Below are positions 40,174 through 45,775 of a stretch of 64,000 bases of DNA, piece after piece. The translations under genes were made by a program, and so were the position numbers. The stretch comes from Streptomyces sp. NBC_00461 (lineage in GTDB: Bacteria > Actinomycetota > Actinomycetes > Streptomycetales > Streptomycetaceae), in the NCBI RefSeq assembly GCF_036013935.1, contig NZ_CP107902.1, forward strand, positions 9,705,001 to 9,769,000. The letters run 5' to 3'. Positions within the stretch are counted from its first letter, which is position 1, and every line of letters starts with the position of its first letter. The notes under the pieces were generated by a model. That model saw only the letters and a list, made by a program, of their open reading frames with translations. It made no database searches and was not told the origin of the DNA.

Positions 40174-41142
40174 TCAGCGCAGCCCGAAGCGTTCCGCCCA
40201 GTCCATGACGTCGCCGGTCGTCACGTTGCCCCCGCACACGACCAGACCGAGCCGAGCGCCCTCGCCGACCCGCTCCAGGACCCGCCGGGCCGCGGGCAGC
40301 AGACAGCCGGCCGCGGGTTCGGCCCACACCTTGGCGTGCGCGGCGAGGTCGAGCGTGCCCCGCACCGCCTCCCGGTCCGGCACCACGAGCACCTCCTGGA
40401 CCAGCGCGGAGACATGGTCGTAGGTCAGTTGCGAGACGGAGGGCGCGCTGAGCGTGGACACGATGGAGGACAGGGCGACCGGCACCGGGCCGCCCGCCGC
40501 GAGCGCCTCCGACATGGCCTCGGCGCCCTCGGTCTCCACACCCCAGATCCGCACGCCCGGCCGCCGGTCCCGCAGCGCCGCCGCGACACCGGAGATCAGT
40601 CCGCCGCCGCCGACGCTGACGAGGACGTCGGTGAGGTCGCCCGCGTCCGCGGCCAGCTCCAGGCCGACGGTGCCCTGGCCGGCGACGACCACCGGATCGT
40701 CGAAGGGGTGCACCAGCGTCAGCCCCTCCTCCCGCAACCGCGTCGCGAGCGCGAACGCCCCGGCCATGTCGTCGGTCAGCCGCACCGACGCACCGGCTGC
40801 CTCCGCCATCTCGACCGACCGCGCGGGCGCCGAGCGCGGCATGACCACCGTGGCCTTCACATGGAGGGCCGCGGCCATGACCGCGAGGGCGATCCCGTGA
40901 TTGCCGCCGCTGACCGCCACGACTCCGGCGGCCCGCTCGCCTTCGCTCAGCGAGAGCAGCTTGGCCGTCGCCCCGCGGGCCTTGAACGAGCCGGTGCGCT
41001 GGAGCAGTTCGAGCTTGACCGTGACCGGCGCGCCGAGCAGCGCGGTCAGTCCCGGGCTCGGCAGCGTCGGGGTACGCACCACGTGCGTGGCGATGTGCTC
41101 GGCCGCGGCTTCGACCTCGGAGATCCCGATCAAGACAGCCAC
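40174..41142 (-). CDS. Threonine/serine dehydratase-like PLP enzyme
   Basis: A 322-residue fold-type II PLP enzyme. Lys54 in TGSFKARGATAK should bind PLP, GGNHGIALA is the substrate loop, and GGGGLISGVAAAL the phosphate-binding turn. It has no regulatory ACT domain, so it resembles catabolic threonine ammonia-lyase, serine racemase or related eliminases, acting in the cytoplasm. ATG 41142 is used. It lies 100 bp downstream of the polyprenyl synthase gene on the same strand, perhaps on the same transcript. Confidence 0.88.
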   Translation of the reverse strand: MAVLIGISEVEAAAEHIATHVVRTPTLPSPGLTALLGAPVTVKLELLQRTGSFKARGATAKLLSLSEGERAAGVVAVSGGNHGIALAVMAAALHVKATVVMPRSAPARSVEMAEAAGASVRLTDDMAGAFALATRLREEGLTLVHPFDDPVVVAGQGTVGLELAADAGDLTDVLVSVGGGGLISGVAAALRDRRPGVRIWGVETEGAEAMSEALAAGGPVPVALSSIVSTLSAPSVSQLTYDHVSALVQEVLVVPDREAVRGTLDLAAHAKVWAEPAAGCLLPAARRVLERVGEGARLGLVVCGGNVTTGDVMDWAERFGLR

Positions 41143-41242: not shown

Positions 41243-42280
41243 TCAGACGTCCCGCCGCACCAGATACCCCAGCAGCGACCGCAGCTCGTCCACCGCCTCC
41301 GTCTCCAGGGCCGCCTCGGCGAGAGCCGTCTCCGCCGCGGTGATGTGATGCCGTGCCTCGGCCATTGCAGCCGACCGGCCTCCCAGGGCATCGATCAGCG
41401 CGGCCGCCTCCTCGGGGTCCCCGCCCGCGGCCAGCACCGCGGCGAGTCGCCGGGCCCCGGGGCCGTCGGAGTCGAGCGCGGCCAGTACCGGAAACGTCTT
41501 CTTCCGTTCCCGCAGATCGCCGTGCACGGGCTTGCCGGTGACCGCTGGGTCGCCCCAGATGCCCAGGACGTCGTCGACGGTCTGGAAGGCGATCCCGAGG
41601 TGGCGCCCCGCACGGTCGAGGGCGTCGACCACCGAGGGCGCGGCGCCGCCGAGCAGGGCGCCGAGCGCCGCCGCGCAGCCCAGCAGCGAACCCGTCTTGT
41701 GCTCGGCCATCGCCCGGTACTCCTCCGGCGGCACCCGGTCCGGTCCCGTCCACGGACGGGAGGCGAACAGCAGGTCGTCCGCCTGACCGCGCACCAGGTC
41801 ACCCAGCGCCACCGACAGCACCCGCACGGCCTGCGGGCCGGCCGGCGCCGCAGCGAGGGTCTCGACGGCCAGTGCGAACAGGGCGTCGCCCGCGAGGACC
41901 GCGGGCCCGGTGCCGTAGGCCTTCCACACGGTGGGCCGGCGTCGCCGGGCCGCGTCGCCGTCCATGATGTCGTCGTGGAGCAGGGAGAAGGTGTGCACCA
42001 GCTCCACCGCGACCGCCGCGGGTACGCCCGCCCGCCCGGGTGCCCCCGCCGCCTCGGCCCCGAGCACGGCCAGTGCCTGCCGAACGCCCTTCCCACCGGA
42101 CGCGACGGCCGGCGCACCGCCCACCTCGCACCAGCCGAACGAGTACGCCGCCATCTCACCCACCCAGGGATGCATCCGCGCGACGGCCTCCACCAGCGCG
42201 GGCCGCACCAACTCGCGGCAGCGGTCGAGGACGTGAGGAGCGTCGACGGGCGCCCGCAGCGCCGAAGGAAGGGCCGTCAT
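41243..42280 (-). CDS. Polyprenyl (isoprenyl) diphosphate synthase
   Basis: A 345-residue trans-prenyltransferase. The first Asp-rich motif is LLHDDIMDGDAARRRRP (DDxxD at 103-107) and the second is FQTVDDVLGIWGD (232-244). It should condense IPP with an allylic diphosphate in the cytoplasm to give a C10 to C25 product; the side chains before the first motif (HTFSL) do not settle the length. Its ATG overlaps the stop of the TPR gene upstream (ATGA), so the two are translationally coupled. No terpene cyclase or squalene/phytoene synthase adjoins it. It could feed GPP to the methylisoborneol operon 20 kb away, but that is speculation. Confidence 0.92.
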   Translation of the reverse strand: MTALPSALRAPVDAPHVLDRCRELVRPALVEAVARMHPWVGEMAAYSFGWCEVGGAPAVASGGKGVRQALAVLGAEAAGAPGRAGVPAAVAVELVHTFSLLHDDIMDGDAARRRRPTVWKAYGTGPAVLAGDALFALAVETLAAAPAGPQAVRVLSVALGDLVRGQADDLLFASRPWTGPDRVPPEEYRAMAEHKTGSLLGCAAALGALLGGAAPSVVDALDRAGRHLGIAFQTVDDVLGIWGDPAVTGKPVHGDLRERKKTFPVLAALDSDGPGARRLAAVLAAGGDPEEAAALIDALGGRSAAMAEARHHITAAETALAEAALETEAVDELRSLLGYLVRRDV

Positions 42281-43317
42281 CGTGCGACCTCCGCCACGAT
42301 CCCGAACTCCTCCTGCGCCCGCGCCACCATCTCCCGTGCGTGCCGCAGCCCGATCCGTTCCAACTCACGTGCCAGTTCGGTCAGTTCCGCCGCCGTCTCG
42401 GTTCGGTCGCGGCCCAGCCGGGCCAAGGACTTGGCCAGCCCCAGCCGCGCCAGCGCCTCCCCGCGCGGCTCGCTCATCGCGCGGAACTCATCGAGCGCCT
42501 GCTCGTACAGGTCACGGGACTCGGCGTAACGTCCCGCCCGGTACAGGACGTTGCCGCGCATCTTGTGGTTGTAGGCCAGCGCGCTGGACAGCTTCATCGC
42601 ACGGCACGTCGTCTCCGCCTCGGACAGCAGCGCGAGCGCCCGCTCGACGTCCTTGTCCCGCACGGAGACGATGTCGGCCAGCCCGCGCAGCGCCCAGGCG
42701 TGACCGCGCCGGTCGTCGGCGCCCGCGGCTATCCCGGCCGCCTCCTCGAACAGGGCGTACGCCGTGTCGTACTCACCCGTGTTGCGGTGGATCTGCGCGA
42801 TGCCCTCCAGCGCCCACACCGTGTGCCGCGCCTCGCCGCGCCGCCGGGCCTCGGCCAGCAGCTGCTCGTGCAGCCTGCGTACGGCCTCGTAGTCGCCCTG
42901 GATGCGGCCGGTCTCGGCAAGTCCCGCGAGCGAATAGCCGCGTACGACCACGTCGCCGCCCTGTTCGCCGAGTTCGGCCGCGAGCCCCAGCAGCCGCCAG
43001 GCCAGCGGGAAGGCGCCCCGCTGTCGGGCCAGGGTGCCGCCGCTCCACAGCGCCCACGCCATCGCAGCGGTGTCCCCGGCCTCCCGCGCCGCGCGGTAAC
43101 TCGCCTTCCATGCCCGCTCGGCGTCCCTGACCTGCCCCAGCCTGCGGTGTGCCTCGGCGACCGCGAGTCCGGAGCGGGCCGCCTCTCCCTGCTTCCCGGC
43201 CTGCTCGGCAGCTCTCAACTCCCGTGTGCCGGCGGCCAGTACGTCGGTCAGCGAGGAGTTCACGGAGAGGGTGGTGAGGGCGCCCTGGTACTCCGGGGCG
43301 AATGCCTTGCCGTACAT
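42277..43317 (-). CDS. Tetratricopeptide repeat protein
   Basis: A 346-residue all-helical protein made of TPR-like units. Examples are LAVAEAHRRLGQVRDAERAW, VWALEGIAQIHRNTGEYDTA and MRGNVLYRAGRYAESRDLYE. No DNA-binding or enzymatic domain is visible, so it is a protein-protein interaction scaffold. ATG 43317 has AAAGGGA upstream. It heads the operon with the coupled polyprenyl synthase. Its promoter region contains a remarkable 13-bp array of GTATAC palindromes. Such coupling suggests that the TPR protein binds or regulates the synthase. Confidence 0.85.
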   Translation of the reverse strand: MYGKAFAPEYQGALTTLSVNSSLTDVLAAGTRELRAAEQAGKQGEAARSGLAVAEAHRRLGQVRDAERAWKASYRAAREAGDTAAMAWALWSGGTLARQRGAFPLAWRLLGLAAELGEQGGDVVVRGYSLAGLAETGRIQGDYEAVRRLHEQLLAEARRRGEARHTVWALEGIAQIHRNTGEYDTAYALFEEAAGIAAGADDRRGHAWALRGLADIVSVRDKDVERALALLSEAETTCRAMKLSSALAYNHKMRGNVLYRAGRYAESRDLYEQALDEFRAMSEPRGEALARLGLAKSLARLGRDRTETAAELTELARELERIGLRHAREMVARAQEEFGIVAEVAR

Positions 43318-43333
43318 GGATCCCTTTCGTTCC

Positions 43334-43404
43334 GTATACACAGCATCTCTGTGCGTTGTGTATACATGTCGGGTATACGTGCCGTGTATACATGCTGCGT
43401 ATAC
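43334..43404 (-). promoter_or_regulatory. 13-bp-register array of GTATAC palindromes
   Basis: GTATAC occurs at 43334, 43360, 43373, 43386 and 43399. The last four are spaced exactly 13 bp apart and the first exactly 26 bp before the second, so the slot at 43347 is empty. Most copies extend to GTATACATG. The array ends 17 bp before the TPR start codon and has no ORF. It reads as a multi-site operator for cooperative binding of a regulator. Confidence 0.82.
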
Positions 43405-43431
43405 ATGACGTGCATAGCGTTTCGAAAATGG

Positions 43432-43455
43432 GCCCTGGCCCCTGCGGGCCAGGGC
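43432..43455 (-). terminator. Terminator of the AIM24 gene
   Basis: GCCCTGGCCC (43432-43441) and GGGCCAGGGC (43446-43455) form a perfect 10-bp stem with a CTGC loop, 100 bp past the AIM24 stop and upstream of the GTATAC array, insulating the next operon. Confidence 0.7.
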
Positions 43456-43554
43456 ATCACCTGTTGCGGATCAAGACGTCGTTGCCGCCGTGAAGGTTGC
43501 GCGTGATACGCAGATCACATCAGCGGACCGGTCCAGAGGCTCGTTTCCCGGGCC

Positions 43555-44232
43555 TCAGTGCTGCTGCGCCTTCTGCGGCGTCGCCTCACTCGGCCGCACG
43601 ACCACGTACCCCTCGCCCTGCAACATCAACTGCACGGCCTCCCCGGAACCGCCGCGCAGCATCGAACCTATGGACTGCGAACGGTGCAGTGAGGTCTGCA
43701 GGCCCGCCGTCCAGCCGACGACCGCGTCCGTGTCGACGTACACCGGGAACTGTGCCGAGACCGGGATGACCAGCGGATTGCCCTCGCACACCAGGCCCAG
43801 CCTGCCCTGCCCCGTGAAGACGCTGTTGAAGAGGCCGCCGCCGGCGATGCCCGCGCCCTTGACCGTCGAGATCCGGTACGACAACGAGGCGTCGAAACAC
43901 AGGACGTTGCGGCCGTTGACGGTGAACTCGTCGCCGGGGTCGACGTCGACGATGAAACAGTTCTGGGCCTCGTGCGCGAACCAGGCCTCGCCCTGTCCGC
44001 GCACCGCCATCAGTGGCAGCCCCTCTCCGGTGACCGCGCGCTTGAGCATGCCGCCCACGCCCTGGCCCTTGCGCTCGAACTGGAGGTTGCCGCGGTAGGC
44101 GACCATCGCGCCCTGGCGGGCGAGCATCTCGCCGTTCACCGCGTACTTGACGCATTTGGCGTTCTCGACGGTCATGCCCGCTTCGGTGGCCGGCTGGACC
44201 ATGTACTCACTGGAAAAGAGGGAACCCTTCAT
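43555..44232 (-). CDS. AIM24 family protein
   Basis: A 225-residue beta-rich AIM24 domain protein (TRAP-like fold). It contains VKYAVNGEMLARQGAMVAYR, GQGEAWFAHEAQNCFIVDVD and LLQGEGYVVVRPS-type strands. Bacterial AIM24 proteins are of unknown function; yeast AIM24 is mitochondrial. In Streptomyces they often sit with TerD genes, as here, where a TerD-CAP protein is encoded 65 bp upstream on the same strand. ATG 44232 has AGGA upstream. Confidence 0.87.
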   Translation of the reverse strand: MKGSLFSSEYMVQPATEAGMTVENAKCVKYAVNGEMLARQGAMVAYRGNLQFERKGQGVGGMLKRAVTGEGLPLMAVRGQGEAWFAHEAQNCFIVDVDPGDEFTVNGRNVLCFDASLSYRISTVKGAGIAGGGLFNSVFTGQGRLGLVCEGNPLVIPVSAQFPVYVDTDAVVGWTAGLQTSLHRSQSIGSMLRGGSGEAVQLMLQGEGYVVVRPSEATPQKAQQH

Positions 44233-44297: not shown

Positions 44298-45689
44298 TCA
44301 GGCGCCGAACAACTGGGTCCAGTACGTGCCTGCCGGGCCGCCGCCCGCAAAACCGATCCCTATGTGAGTGAAGTCGGGTTTGAGGATGTTGGCGCGGTGG
44401 CCGGGGCTGTTCATCCAGCCGTCCACCACCTCGGCGGGGGAGCGTTGGCCGCAGGCGATGTTCTCGCCGATCGAGCGTCGGCGCGCGCCCGCGGCGGCGG
44501 CCCGGTCCCAGGGCTGGGTGCCCTCCGGCGAGGTGTGCGAGTAGAAGGAGCGGGCCACCATGTCCGCGCTGTGCGCCTGCGCCGCGGTGGCGAGCAGGGG
44601 GTCGCCGGCCAGGGGAGGCAGACCGGCCCGGGCGCGCTGCCGGTTGGTGAGGTCGACGACCTCGGCCGCCGTCCGCGTCAGGTCGCCCGGCGTGAGGGGC
44701 CTCGCCCACAGCGCGGTCCAGTACATGTCGCCCGAGCGCCCGTCGCCGACGTACGCCACGCCCGCCTGCGTGCAGGCCGGGTCGCACAGGGTGCGCCGGG
44801 ACCGCTCGTCGCCCAGGCAGTACCGGACGGACTCGGAGGGTGTGCGCGGGCCGGAGACCAGGTGCTCGCCGATGGTGAGGTACGCGTACCCGGCGGCCGT
44901 GACGCGCTGGTGGACGGAGACGCCGTCCCGGCCCTCGGCGCCGAGGCGCCCTGCCGCCGCCATGGCACCGGCGTGGGCGTGCGCCGCGGACGTGAGACGG
45001 GCGTCGAGGACGACGGGCGGTGAACCGGCCGCGGCGCGGGCGGAGTTGACCAGCCCGAGGAAGCCGCCCGGATCGGGGGAGGGCGGTGGCGCGGTGGGTA
45101 CGGCGGGTGCGGGCGGAAGGGAGAGGGAGGAGGAACCGGAGCGGGTTGCCGGGATCGGTGCTGTCGGGATCGGCGGTGTCGGGGACGGCGGTGTCGGGGA
45201 TGGGGCCGGTTCGTCGATGACGTCCACGCCGAAGTCCCGCGCGAGACCGGCGAGTCCGTCGGCGTACCCCTGGCCCAGGGCTCGAAGTTTCCAGCCGCCC
45301 GCCCGCTGATAGATCTCCGCGAGCAGCAGCACTGTCTCCTGCCGCGGGGGCGGCGGGGCGAACCGGGCGAGTCGGCGGCCGCCCGGAGCCGTGACGAGGA
45401 GCGTGGGCGCCGGGAGGCGGCCCAGGGGAGTGCCGGGCTCGGCGGAGCTGACGACGACGGTGATCCTGGTGGCGCCGGCGCGCAGTCTCGGCGGTTCCAC
45501 GGTGAGGGTGTCGCCGTCCAGTCGGGCGCCCGGAGCGGACGGCTGGTTGTAGAACACGAAGTCGGCGTCGCCCCGGACCTTTCCCCCGTCGTCCGTGATG
45601 AGCGCGGACACGTCGAACGGGCCGGGTACCCGGACGGTCACGACGCCGCCCGGAAGGGGCATGTTGCCGCCGGGGACCAACTCGCTCAT
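44298..45689 (-). CDS. TerD-CAP-CAP fusion protein
   Basis: A 463-residue protein without a signal peptide. The N-terminal 150 residues are a TerD-like tellurium-resistance domain (DADFVFYNQPSAPGARLDGD, LLLAEIYQRAGGWKLRALGQ). A Pro/Thr/Ile linker follows from short DNA repeats. Two CAP/SCP1 domains complete it: an eroded one (GFLGLVNSARAAAGSPPVVL, with CLGDERSRRTLCDPAC cysteines) and a typical one (VVDLTNRQRARAGLPPLAGD, SIGENIACGQRSPAEVVDGW and MNSPGHRANIL). TerD proteins bind calcium and act inside the cell; CAP domains are usually secreted. ATG 45689 is used. Confidence 0.88.
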   Translation of the reverse strand: MSELVPGGNMPLPGGVVTVRVPGPFDVSALITDDGGKVRGDADFVFYNQPSAPGARLDGDTLTVEPPRLRAGATRITVVVSSAEPGTPLGRLPAPTLLVTAPGGRRLARFAPPPPRQETVLLLAEIYQRAGGWKLRALGQGYADGLAGLARDFGVDVIDEPAPSPTPPSPTPPIPTAPIPATRSGSSSLSLPPAPAVPTAPPPSPDPGGFLGLVNSARAAAGSPPVVLDARLTSAAHAHAGAMAAAGRLGAEGRDGVSVHQRVTAAGYAYLTIGEHLVSGPRTPSESVRYCLGDERSRRTLCDPACTQAGVAYVGDGRSGDMYWTALWARPLTPGDLTRTAAEVVDLTNRQRARAGLPPLAGDPLLATAAQAHSADMVARSFYSHTSPEGTQPWDRAAAAGARRRSIGENIACGQRSPAEVVDGWMNSPGHRANILKPDFTHIGIGFAGGGPAGTYWTQLFGA

Positions 45690-45775
45690 CGCGCCGCCCT
45701 GGTGTCGTCGTACTCGCCTCGGTGGGCTCGTCCGGACAACGTCCACCGGGGCGGCGCGGTTCCCACCGGATCAGC

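Follow-up and report, generated by a model that had tools for sequence, protein, structure and literature searches.

The 64-kb window, by which we mean the whole stretch of DNA analysed, belongs to a host genome of 10.37 Mb in a single contig and carries a TPR/polyprenyl-synthase gene pair (Table 1). The start of the TPR protein, MYGKAF, recurs among its orthologues; comparison of the protein with the PDB returned generic TPR proteins only, and comparison with NCBIfam gave no name above cut-off. The best NCBIfam model for the prenyl synthase was the family-2 encapsulin cargo polyprenyl transferase, which scored 379 bits and thus fell below its cut-off of 450. The dehydratase-like gene next to the pair also adjoins it at loci L097 and L104, and may be a third member of the operon. 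A separate gene at window positions 44298-45746 encodes a protein in which TerD and CAP domains are fused.

Exact copies of GTATAC were found at 43334, 43360, 43373, 43386 and 43399, as the original prediction had it, and the array ends 17 nt from the TPR start codon, with its last base at -17. The window contains six copies of the hexamer, five of which fall in a stretch of 71 bp; in 100 dinucleotide-preserving shuffles the mean was 1.22 and the maximum 5. The G+C content of bases 43330-43420 is 47%, versus 71% for the window. The five units had been taken for the whole array, which overlooked a sixth, decayed unit at 43412-43417, of the CTATGC type that is the first unit in several TPR orthologues as well. 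Read on the gene strand, the array is CTATGC-N7-GTATAC-N7-GTATAC-N7-GTATAC-N7-GTATAC-N7-(ACAGAG)-N7-GTATAC. A consensus promoter scan of 43280-43620 revealed no promoter-like site near the array, sigma-70-like -35/-10 elements included, and a single weak terminator-like match on the plus strand.

Table 1. Genes, array units and predicted operators in the window, and the related promoters elsewhere in the genome.
Feature	Position	Strand	Remark
PLP-dependent serine/threonine dehydratase-like gene	40174..41142	-	PF00291; possible third operon gene
Polyprenyl synthetase gene	41243..42280	-	PF00348; 4-base overlap with TPR gene end
TPR protein gene	42277..43317	-	ATG at 43317; PF13424 and other TPR families
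Whole operator array	43334..43417	-	on TPR-gene strand; five exact GTATAC plus decayed first unit
Outlying exact GTATAC	43334..43339	-	26 bp from nearest exact unit; in-register partner broken
Broken unit ACAGAG	43347..43352	-	in register; four mismatches; sits in the 26-bp step
Predicted PadR dimer site 4	43360..43378	-	exact GTATAC-N7-GTATAC; putative role
Predicted PadR dimer site 3	43373..43391	-	exact GTATAC-N7-GTATAC; putative role
Predicted PadR dimer site 2	43386..43404	-	exact GTATAC-N7-GTATAC; 6-bp overlap with site 1; putative role
Predicted PadR dimer site 1	43399..43417	-	19 bp, between units 43412 and 43399; putative geometry
Decayed first unit CTATGC	43412..43417	-	in register; two mismatches; inward C retained
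PadR_A promoters (three)	G000:C1:6360684, 7678719, 10183219		exact 13-bp pairs or triplets

The array proved not to be peculiar to the TPR operon, since the same 13-bp register is present in the promoters of three PadR-family genes, referred to here as PadR_A. Across the whole genome there are ten GTATAC pairs at separations of 0-29 bases, of which seven have an offset of precisely 13 bp and one an offset of 26; a reversed-pattern control gave four pairs at any spacing in this range. The exact form GTATAC-N7-GTATAC marks four loci, namely the TPR operon and the three PadR_A promoters. Each PadR_A gene (PF03551) is followed by an ABC ATPase gene and then by a gene for an FtsX-like permease, and the three PadR_A proteins match one another at 92-93%. 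In comparisons with Pfam and NCBIfam, made for a single one of these operons, PadR_A scored 54.8 bits against a PF03551 cut-off of 27, and the best model for the ABC ATPase was LolD, below its cut-off. The PDB relatives of PadR_A are annotated as PadR (best E 1.6e-10). No PadR gene was found within the 64-kb window, and the nearest PadR matches lie more than 200 kb from the array, so control of the TPR operon by such a protein would be exerted in trans. The PadR protein of the WhiA and sigmaE papers (sven3676/sco3900, possibly the same gene) was set aside, because in the available portions of those papers its gene adjoins one for a penicillin-binding protein. At about 8.53-8.55 Mb of the host genome (L009:1501, 8394 and 15859), AT-rich palindromes of a different family, such as GTATACATCGTAAATATAC, precede several genes over ~15 kb; these are probably operators of another, cluster-specific regulator.

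A search with the TPR protein found some match in 247 of 295 genomes of the genus, although in many of these the match is no more than a distant TPR protein. The full-length matches listed, at 65-90% identity, number about 160, and 90 upstream regions were read, comprising the 30 best and 60 hand-picked down this list. At least one exact GTATAC lies within 300 bp in 61 of the 90, where base shuffling would predict 2.2. Among offsets from 6 to 30, exact pairs are confined to 13 (38 pairs) and 26 (24 pairs), which bears out the strict 13-bp register proposed before the TPR/prenyl-synthase pair; with up to one mismatch per unit there are 149 pairs at 13, 97 at 26 and 0-3 at each other offset. The further expectation, that the array itself would be kept at the orthologues, held in part: a 13-bp pair with up to one mismatch per unit is present in 59 of the 90 upstream regions and absent from 31, mostly those of less similar orthologues. 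Decayed three-unit arrays are visible in three of these 31 (L127, L137 and L138), and L057 has a 26-bp pair only.

Base frequencies were tabulated by rank in the array for 59 TPR and 33 PadR arrays, with up to two mismatches allowed in the end units. Inner units read GTATAC between RT and AY, so that the shared extension described originally, an ATG after GTATAC, is real but incomplete. In the first units, position 6 is C in all 92 arrays (59 of 59 at TPR genes), and position 1 has become C in 93% of the TPR and 58% of the PadR arrays; in the last units, position 1 is G in all 92, and position 6 is G in 44% and 88%, respectively. The end units therefore retain the inward half and have an altered outward base. 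This retention, together with the isolated sites described below, suggests that the recognised element is a gap-centred 19-mer, CTATACAY-N3-RTGTATAG, and that dimers probably sit between the units on overlapping 19-bp operators of this sequence. Because GTATAC is self-complementary, the right half of one operator is at the same time the left half of the next, which gives a 6-bp overlap and a 13-bp period. The canonical PadR box, ATGT-N8-ACAT, was not encountered in this consensus. An oligomeric regulator, as first proposed, would fit in so far as adjacent dimers could occupy overlapping sites, but the likely unit of recognition is the gap and not the single GTATAC. A functionless tandem-repeat (minisatellite) product would also show a constant period with a variable copy number, and the arrays do range from two to six units at an unchanging period. 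However, the information content in the 59 TPR arrays is 0.18-0.48 bit for bases in the middle of the spacers versus 1.46-2.00 bits for the inner-unit bases, and promoters unrelated to TPR have this unit and period too, which makes such an origin exceedingly improbable.

The sites were also surveyed without regard to the TPR gene. In 26 genomes (the host and 25 relatives), TATACN7GTATA matched 58 times in the forward form and 8 times when reversed, or 49 against 2 within the genus. With the host genome and five TPR loci set aside, the remaining 32 loci were fetched, and a PadR gene was found at the site in 24 of them. The products of 23 of these genes are 48-94% identical to PadR_A, including six from another family at 54-57%, and one (L071) is about 37% identical. 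The other eight loci comprise four with a secreted polysaccharide deacetylase (L074, L077, L080 and L085), one with a small membrane protein (L091) and three that were unassigned. Exact triplets, GTATACN7GTATACN7GTATAC, were reported from 81 stretches of genome contigs, of which 80 were examined. Whether such triplets precede the TPR pair had been proposed as a check. They do so in 24 of the 35 stretches that are Streptomyces by their record titles; nine others lie at the PadR-ABC operon (L223 being counted there by its ABC gene only) and two lie elsewhere (L209 and L237). No PadR or TPR gene was recognised at the 45 triplet stretches from other taxa.

Among the latter, seven Leifsonia records (L180, L199, L211, L214, L222, L226 and L236) and one of Diaminobutyricibacter (L166) have triplets at 13-bp spacing in the form GGTATACC, and no PadR or TPR gene was recognised in these eight records. 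Clostridium and a Bacillota MAG (L169, L172, L191, L220, L228, L239, L240 and L242) have three to four GTATAC at the same spacing; in the four records that were read (L172, L220, L240 and L242) these stand a few hundred bases before what we take to be a long acyl-CoA-dehydrogenase-like gene. Several contigs of one Uhrbacteria bin (L192, L194, L196, L208 and L221) contain GTATACGTTGAGCGTATACGCTCAACGTATAC as a repeated palindromic element, and 24 stretches with TATACN7GTATACN7GTATA were found in viral contigs.

The isolated-dimer form, CTATACN7GTATAG, occurs 36 times in 35 of the 295 genus genomes versus four times for its control, and is absent from the host genome. Among the 30 loci listed with this form, 19 have the deacetylase gene, two TPR, two PadR, one an FtsX permease and six none of these; L292 and L293 are two of the six. 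Small membrane-type proteins are encoded beside isolated sites at L091:3041-3460 and L287:1042-1464 (no Pfam match) and at L292 and L293 (a DUF6518 protein), and are possible further members of the regulon.

Surveys that began from the proteins gave a similar distribution of sites. At PadR_A loci found by protein, units lie near -40 and -27, in some cases also near -53, in 30 of 30 promoters, and a changed unit, mostly GTANAGT, lies near -14. Overall, sites were present in 66 of 67 PadR_A loci, many of which had been chosen for the site; the single miss, L223, has no recognised PadR start. The PadR_A promoters L348 and L349 have the units and come from genomes whose TPR genes are without an array. 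This placement suggests that PadR_A is autoregulated. The deacetylase search yielded 27 loci in 26 of 42 genomes, and 20 of the 27 have a site that departs from the pattern at no more than one of ten positions, whereas shuffled sequence would yield 0.05. The site at this gene is often a single 19-bp element in the related genomes. Among the seven loci without a site, L353 has two mismatches, and L365 and L374 come from genomes without PadR_A (G229 and G018). The remaining four were read separately from the scoring script: L371 (G128) has a 59% identical deacetylase and no site though PadR_A is present, and L372, L373 and L375 encode 47-49% identical proteins that may represent another gene. 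One of these three is the host genome's own, so that membership of the deacetylase in the regulon is not established for the host. The right half-site of many deacetylase sites and the -14 unit of the PadR promoters both read TANAGT, plausibly the -10 box. Its position a few bases before the ATG suggests that the PadR and deacetylase genes are leaderless, and because this half-site would double as the -10 box, a bound dimer would be expected to cover it and repress transcription.

The 13-bp period recurs in relatives of PadR_A whose units have other letters. In a paralogue group at 46-51% identity to PadR_A, 16 promoters have TACATGTA-type units with the spacer CTCAG, and in a third group at 51-52% identity two promoters have TAGATACTGAG repeats; paralogue group B shows ATGT-N7-ACAT. 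The strongest self-similarity lag is 13 in both paralogue groups (16 + 2 promoters), although the 16 are close relatives and do not count as independent cases. In the six PadR promoters from the other family, lag 13 comes second, at 0.401 versus 0.409 for lag 28, and among 19 PadR upstream regions examined in the host genome several unrelated ones peak at other lags. Since the paralogues have different unit letters and again a 13-bp period, the pitch looks like a property of PadR geometry, and within the PadR_A branch the letters of the unit appear to vary with subtype while the pitch stays constant.

The distribution of PadR_A and its presumed sites over the genus is consistent with these assignments. 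PadR_A was detected at E <= 1e-65 in 271 of the 295 genomes, and at least one exact TATACN7GTATA in 274. Sites are present in 267 of the 271 genomes with PadR_A versus 7 of the 24 without it at this threshold, and 17 of the 21 siteless genomes fall among those 24. The four genomes with PadR_A and no exact site are G145, G176, G205 and G230. Four genomes (G271, G273, G278 and G294) were assigned to the 24 by elimination; G278 and G294, which have sites, do carry pieces of PadR_A. In G113 a site precedes the TPR gene and no PadR_A was found, and a single unexplained site is present in each of G071, G078 and G249, again with no PadR_A found. The comparison is circular in part, as the PadR_A promoter itself contains a site. 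A less circular test used genomes selected because they have either a TPR array or an isolated site, and PadR_A is present in 30 of 30; 25 of the chosen genomes have TPR arrays, all with PadR_A. Among 20 genomes chosen for lacking the TPR array, PadR_A is present in 16 and absent from four, and 15 still hold at least one exact site; the five without any site are the four that lack PadR_A and one that has it (G230). None of the five TPR upstream regions read from genomes without PadR_A has the array.

From this evidence it is very probable that the array is a multi-dimer operator through which PadR_A, a PadR-family winged-helix repressor encoded elsewhere in the genome, would control the TPR operon. 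The link between PadR_A and the sites is drawn from sequence, and it is conceivable, if very unlikely, that PadR_A, the TPR operon and the deacetylase are all under the external control of an unrelated regulator bound at the sites. Against such a regulator, the site follows PadR genes down to the 54-57% identity seen in another family, the unit sequence shifts with the PadR subtype at a constant period, and sites are missing from the majority of genomes that lack PadR_A. A second PadR protein, of the type found at L013, is about 35% identical to PadR_A, and an ABC ATPase gene lies beside its gene at L382. The sequence GTATACCTGTTAGGTATGC stands upstream of the L013 PadR gene, and GTATAC-N7-GTATRC occurs in L013-type promoters of both the host genome (L013:1422) and G271 (L382:1501), where the site at this 87% identical orthologue is the only one in a genome without PadR_A. 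Proteins of this type could therefore also read the array, either as its main reader or jointly with PadR_A. This is an improbable arrangement, however, as arrays of at least three units at 13-bp spacing were not seen at L013-type loci and all 25 chosen genomes with TPR arrays possess PadR_A.

In the mechanism that we favour, with PadR_A as the reader, one dimer would lie across each gap between two GTATAC units, so that four adjoining dimer sites would precede the TPR gene, and the bound dimers would hinder RNA polymerase. PadR_A would repress its own gene, the ABC transporter operon, the TPR operon and, in related genomes, the deacetylase, acting at the PadR and deacetylase promoters through the covered -10 half-site. 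An inducer, perhaps the substrate of the ABC transporter or envelope stress, would release the regulon. The predicted targets (a prenyl synthase, an ABC transporter, a secreted deacetylase and membrane proteins) suggest a role in the cell envelope. With textbook values for 13 bp of B-DNA, each dimer would be rotated by about 86 degrees relative to the next and shifted by 44 Å along the helix. Tentatively, the dimers might form a helical row on shared half-sites, with 13 bp per dimer and the number of units tuned for each promoter within one envelope response. If so, there would often be one dimer at the deacetylase, two to three at padR and up to five at TPR, the geometry of the assembly would stay constant while subtypes change the letters that are read, and prenyl-diphosphate synthesis, ABC transport and polysaccharide deacetylation would be coupled in Streptomyces. 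There is a considerable chance, though not an even one, that PadR_A reads the array but that overlapping sites exclude one another, in which case at most every second site would be filled and the array would serve to raise the chance of occupancy. The operators share the TATA core in their 6-bp overlap, and the sequence bears no sign of simultaneous occupancy, as exclusion would have it; against exclusion, two dimers are placed on one operator by both LmrR and QacR, according to the available text of PMC5428041. As half-site sharing produces the 13-bp register under either arrangement, the sequence cannot choose between them.

The locus thus most likely represents a conserved operator array of unusual overlapping design, with a predicted regulon, for a PadR repressor. 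The regulon is testable, and concerns a PadR regulator of 271 of 295 genus genomes that is tied here to a prenyl-synthase operon and a secreted deacetylase. As an operator design, a self-complementary half-site permits overlap at a fixed 13-bp pitch, and since the unit differs between subtypes at an unchanged pitch, they offer a clean system for studying the packing of repressor dimers on DNA and the evolutionary tuning of operator number. The original remark that no such operator has been described in Streptomyces agrees with our search of an incomplete open-access collection with few subscription journals, in which no description of a GTATAC operator at 13-bp spacing was found.

To our knowledge, the operator of QacR is a single one and does not form an extendable array. 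QacR places two dimers on one long inverted repeat, in the text available from PMC5428041, and is a TetR-family protein, unlike PadR_A. The PadR-like repressors SrcmRII and CmmRII of the Streptomyces chromomycin clusters are listed near ABC transporter genes (PMC5992853), but they sit inside an antibiotic cluster, and the main text of that paper contains none of the terms binding site, palindrom or EMSA. In Clostridioides difficile, cdPadR1 recognises multiple inverted repeats in the promoter of its own gene, and several shifted complexes suggest higher-order binding; its repeats are separate and tolerant in spacing as described in the available text (PMC5050560), in contrast to the strict 13-bp pitch found here. 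The Streptomyces regulator BldC assembles with DNA into an extended filament along repeats that vary in number. It is MerR-like, however, and, in the portion of PMC5859096 available, binds asymmetrically, head to tail, to direct repeats of AATT-N4-C spaced by roughly a turn of the helix, whereas the units described here are palindromic GTATAC at 13 bp and BldC-type AATT-N4-C repeats were not encountered. The nearest working analogue is LmrR of Lactococcus lactis with its transporter LmrCD: according to the available text of PMC5428041, this PadR-like dimeric repressor is encoded beside ABC transporter genes, is autoregulated, binds its own promoter and that of lmrCD, and can occupy one operator as two dimers. 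The PadR box given in the same text is ATGT-N8-ACAT, with N10 at lmrCD, and a row of overlapping operators is not described there for LmrR; the sites reported here have the form TATAC-N7-GTATA and follow one another at overlapping 13-bp steps.
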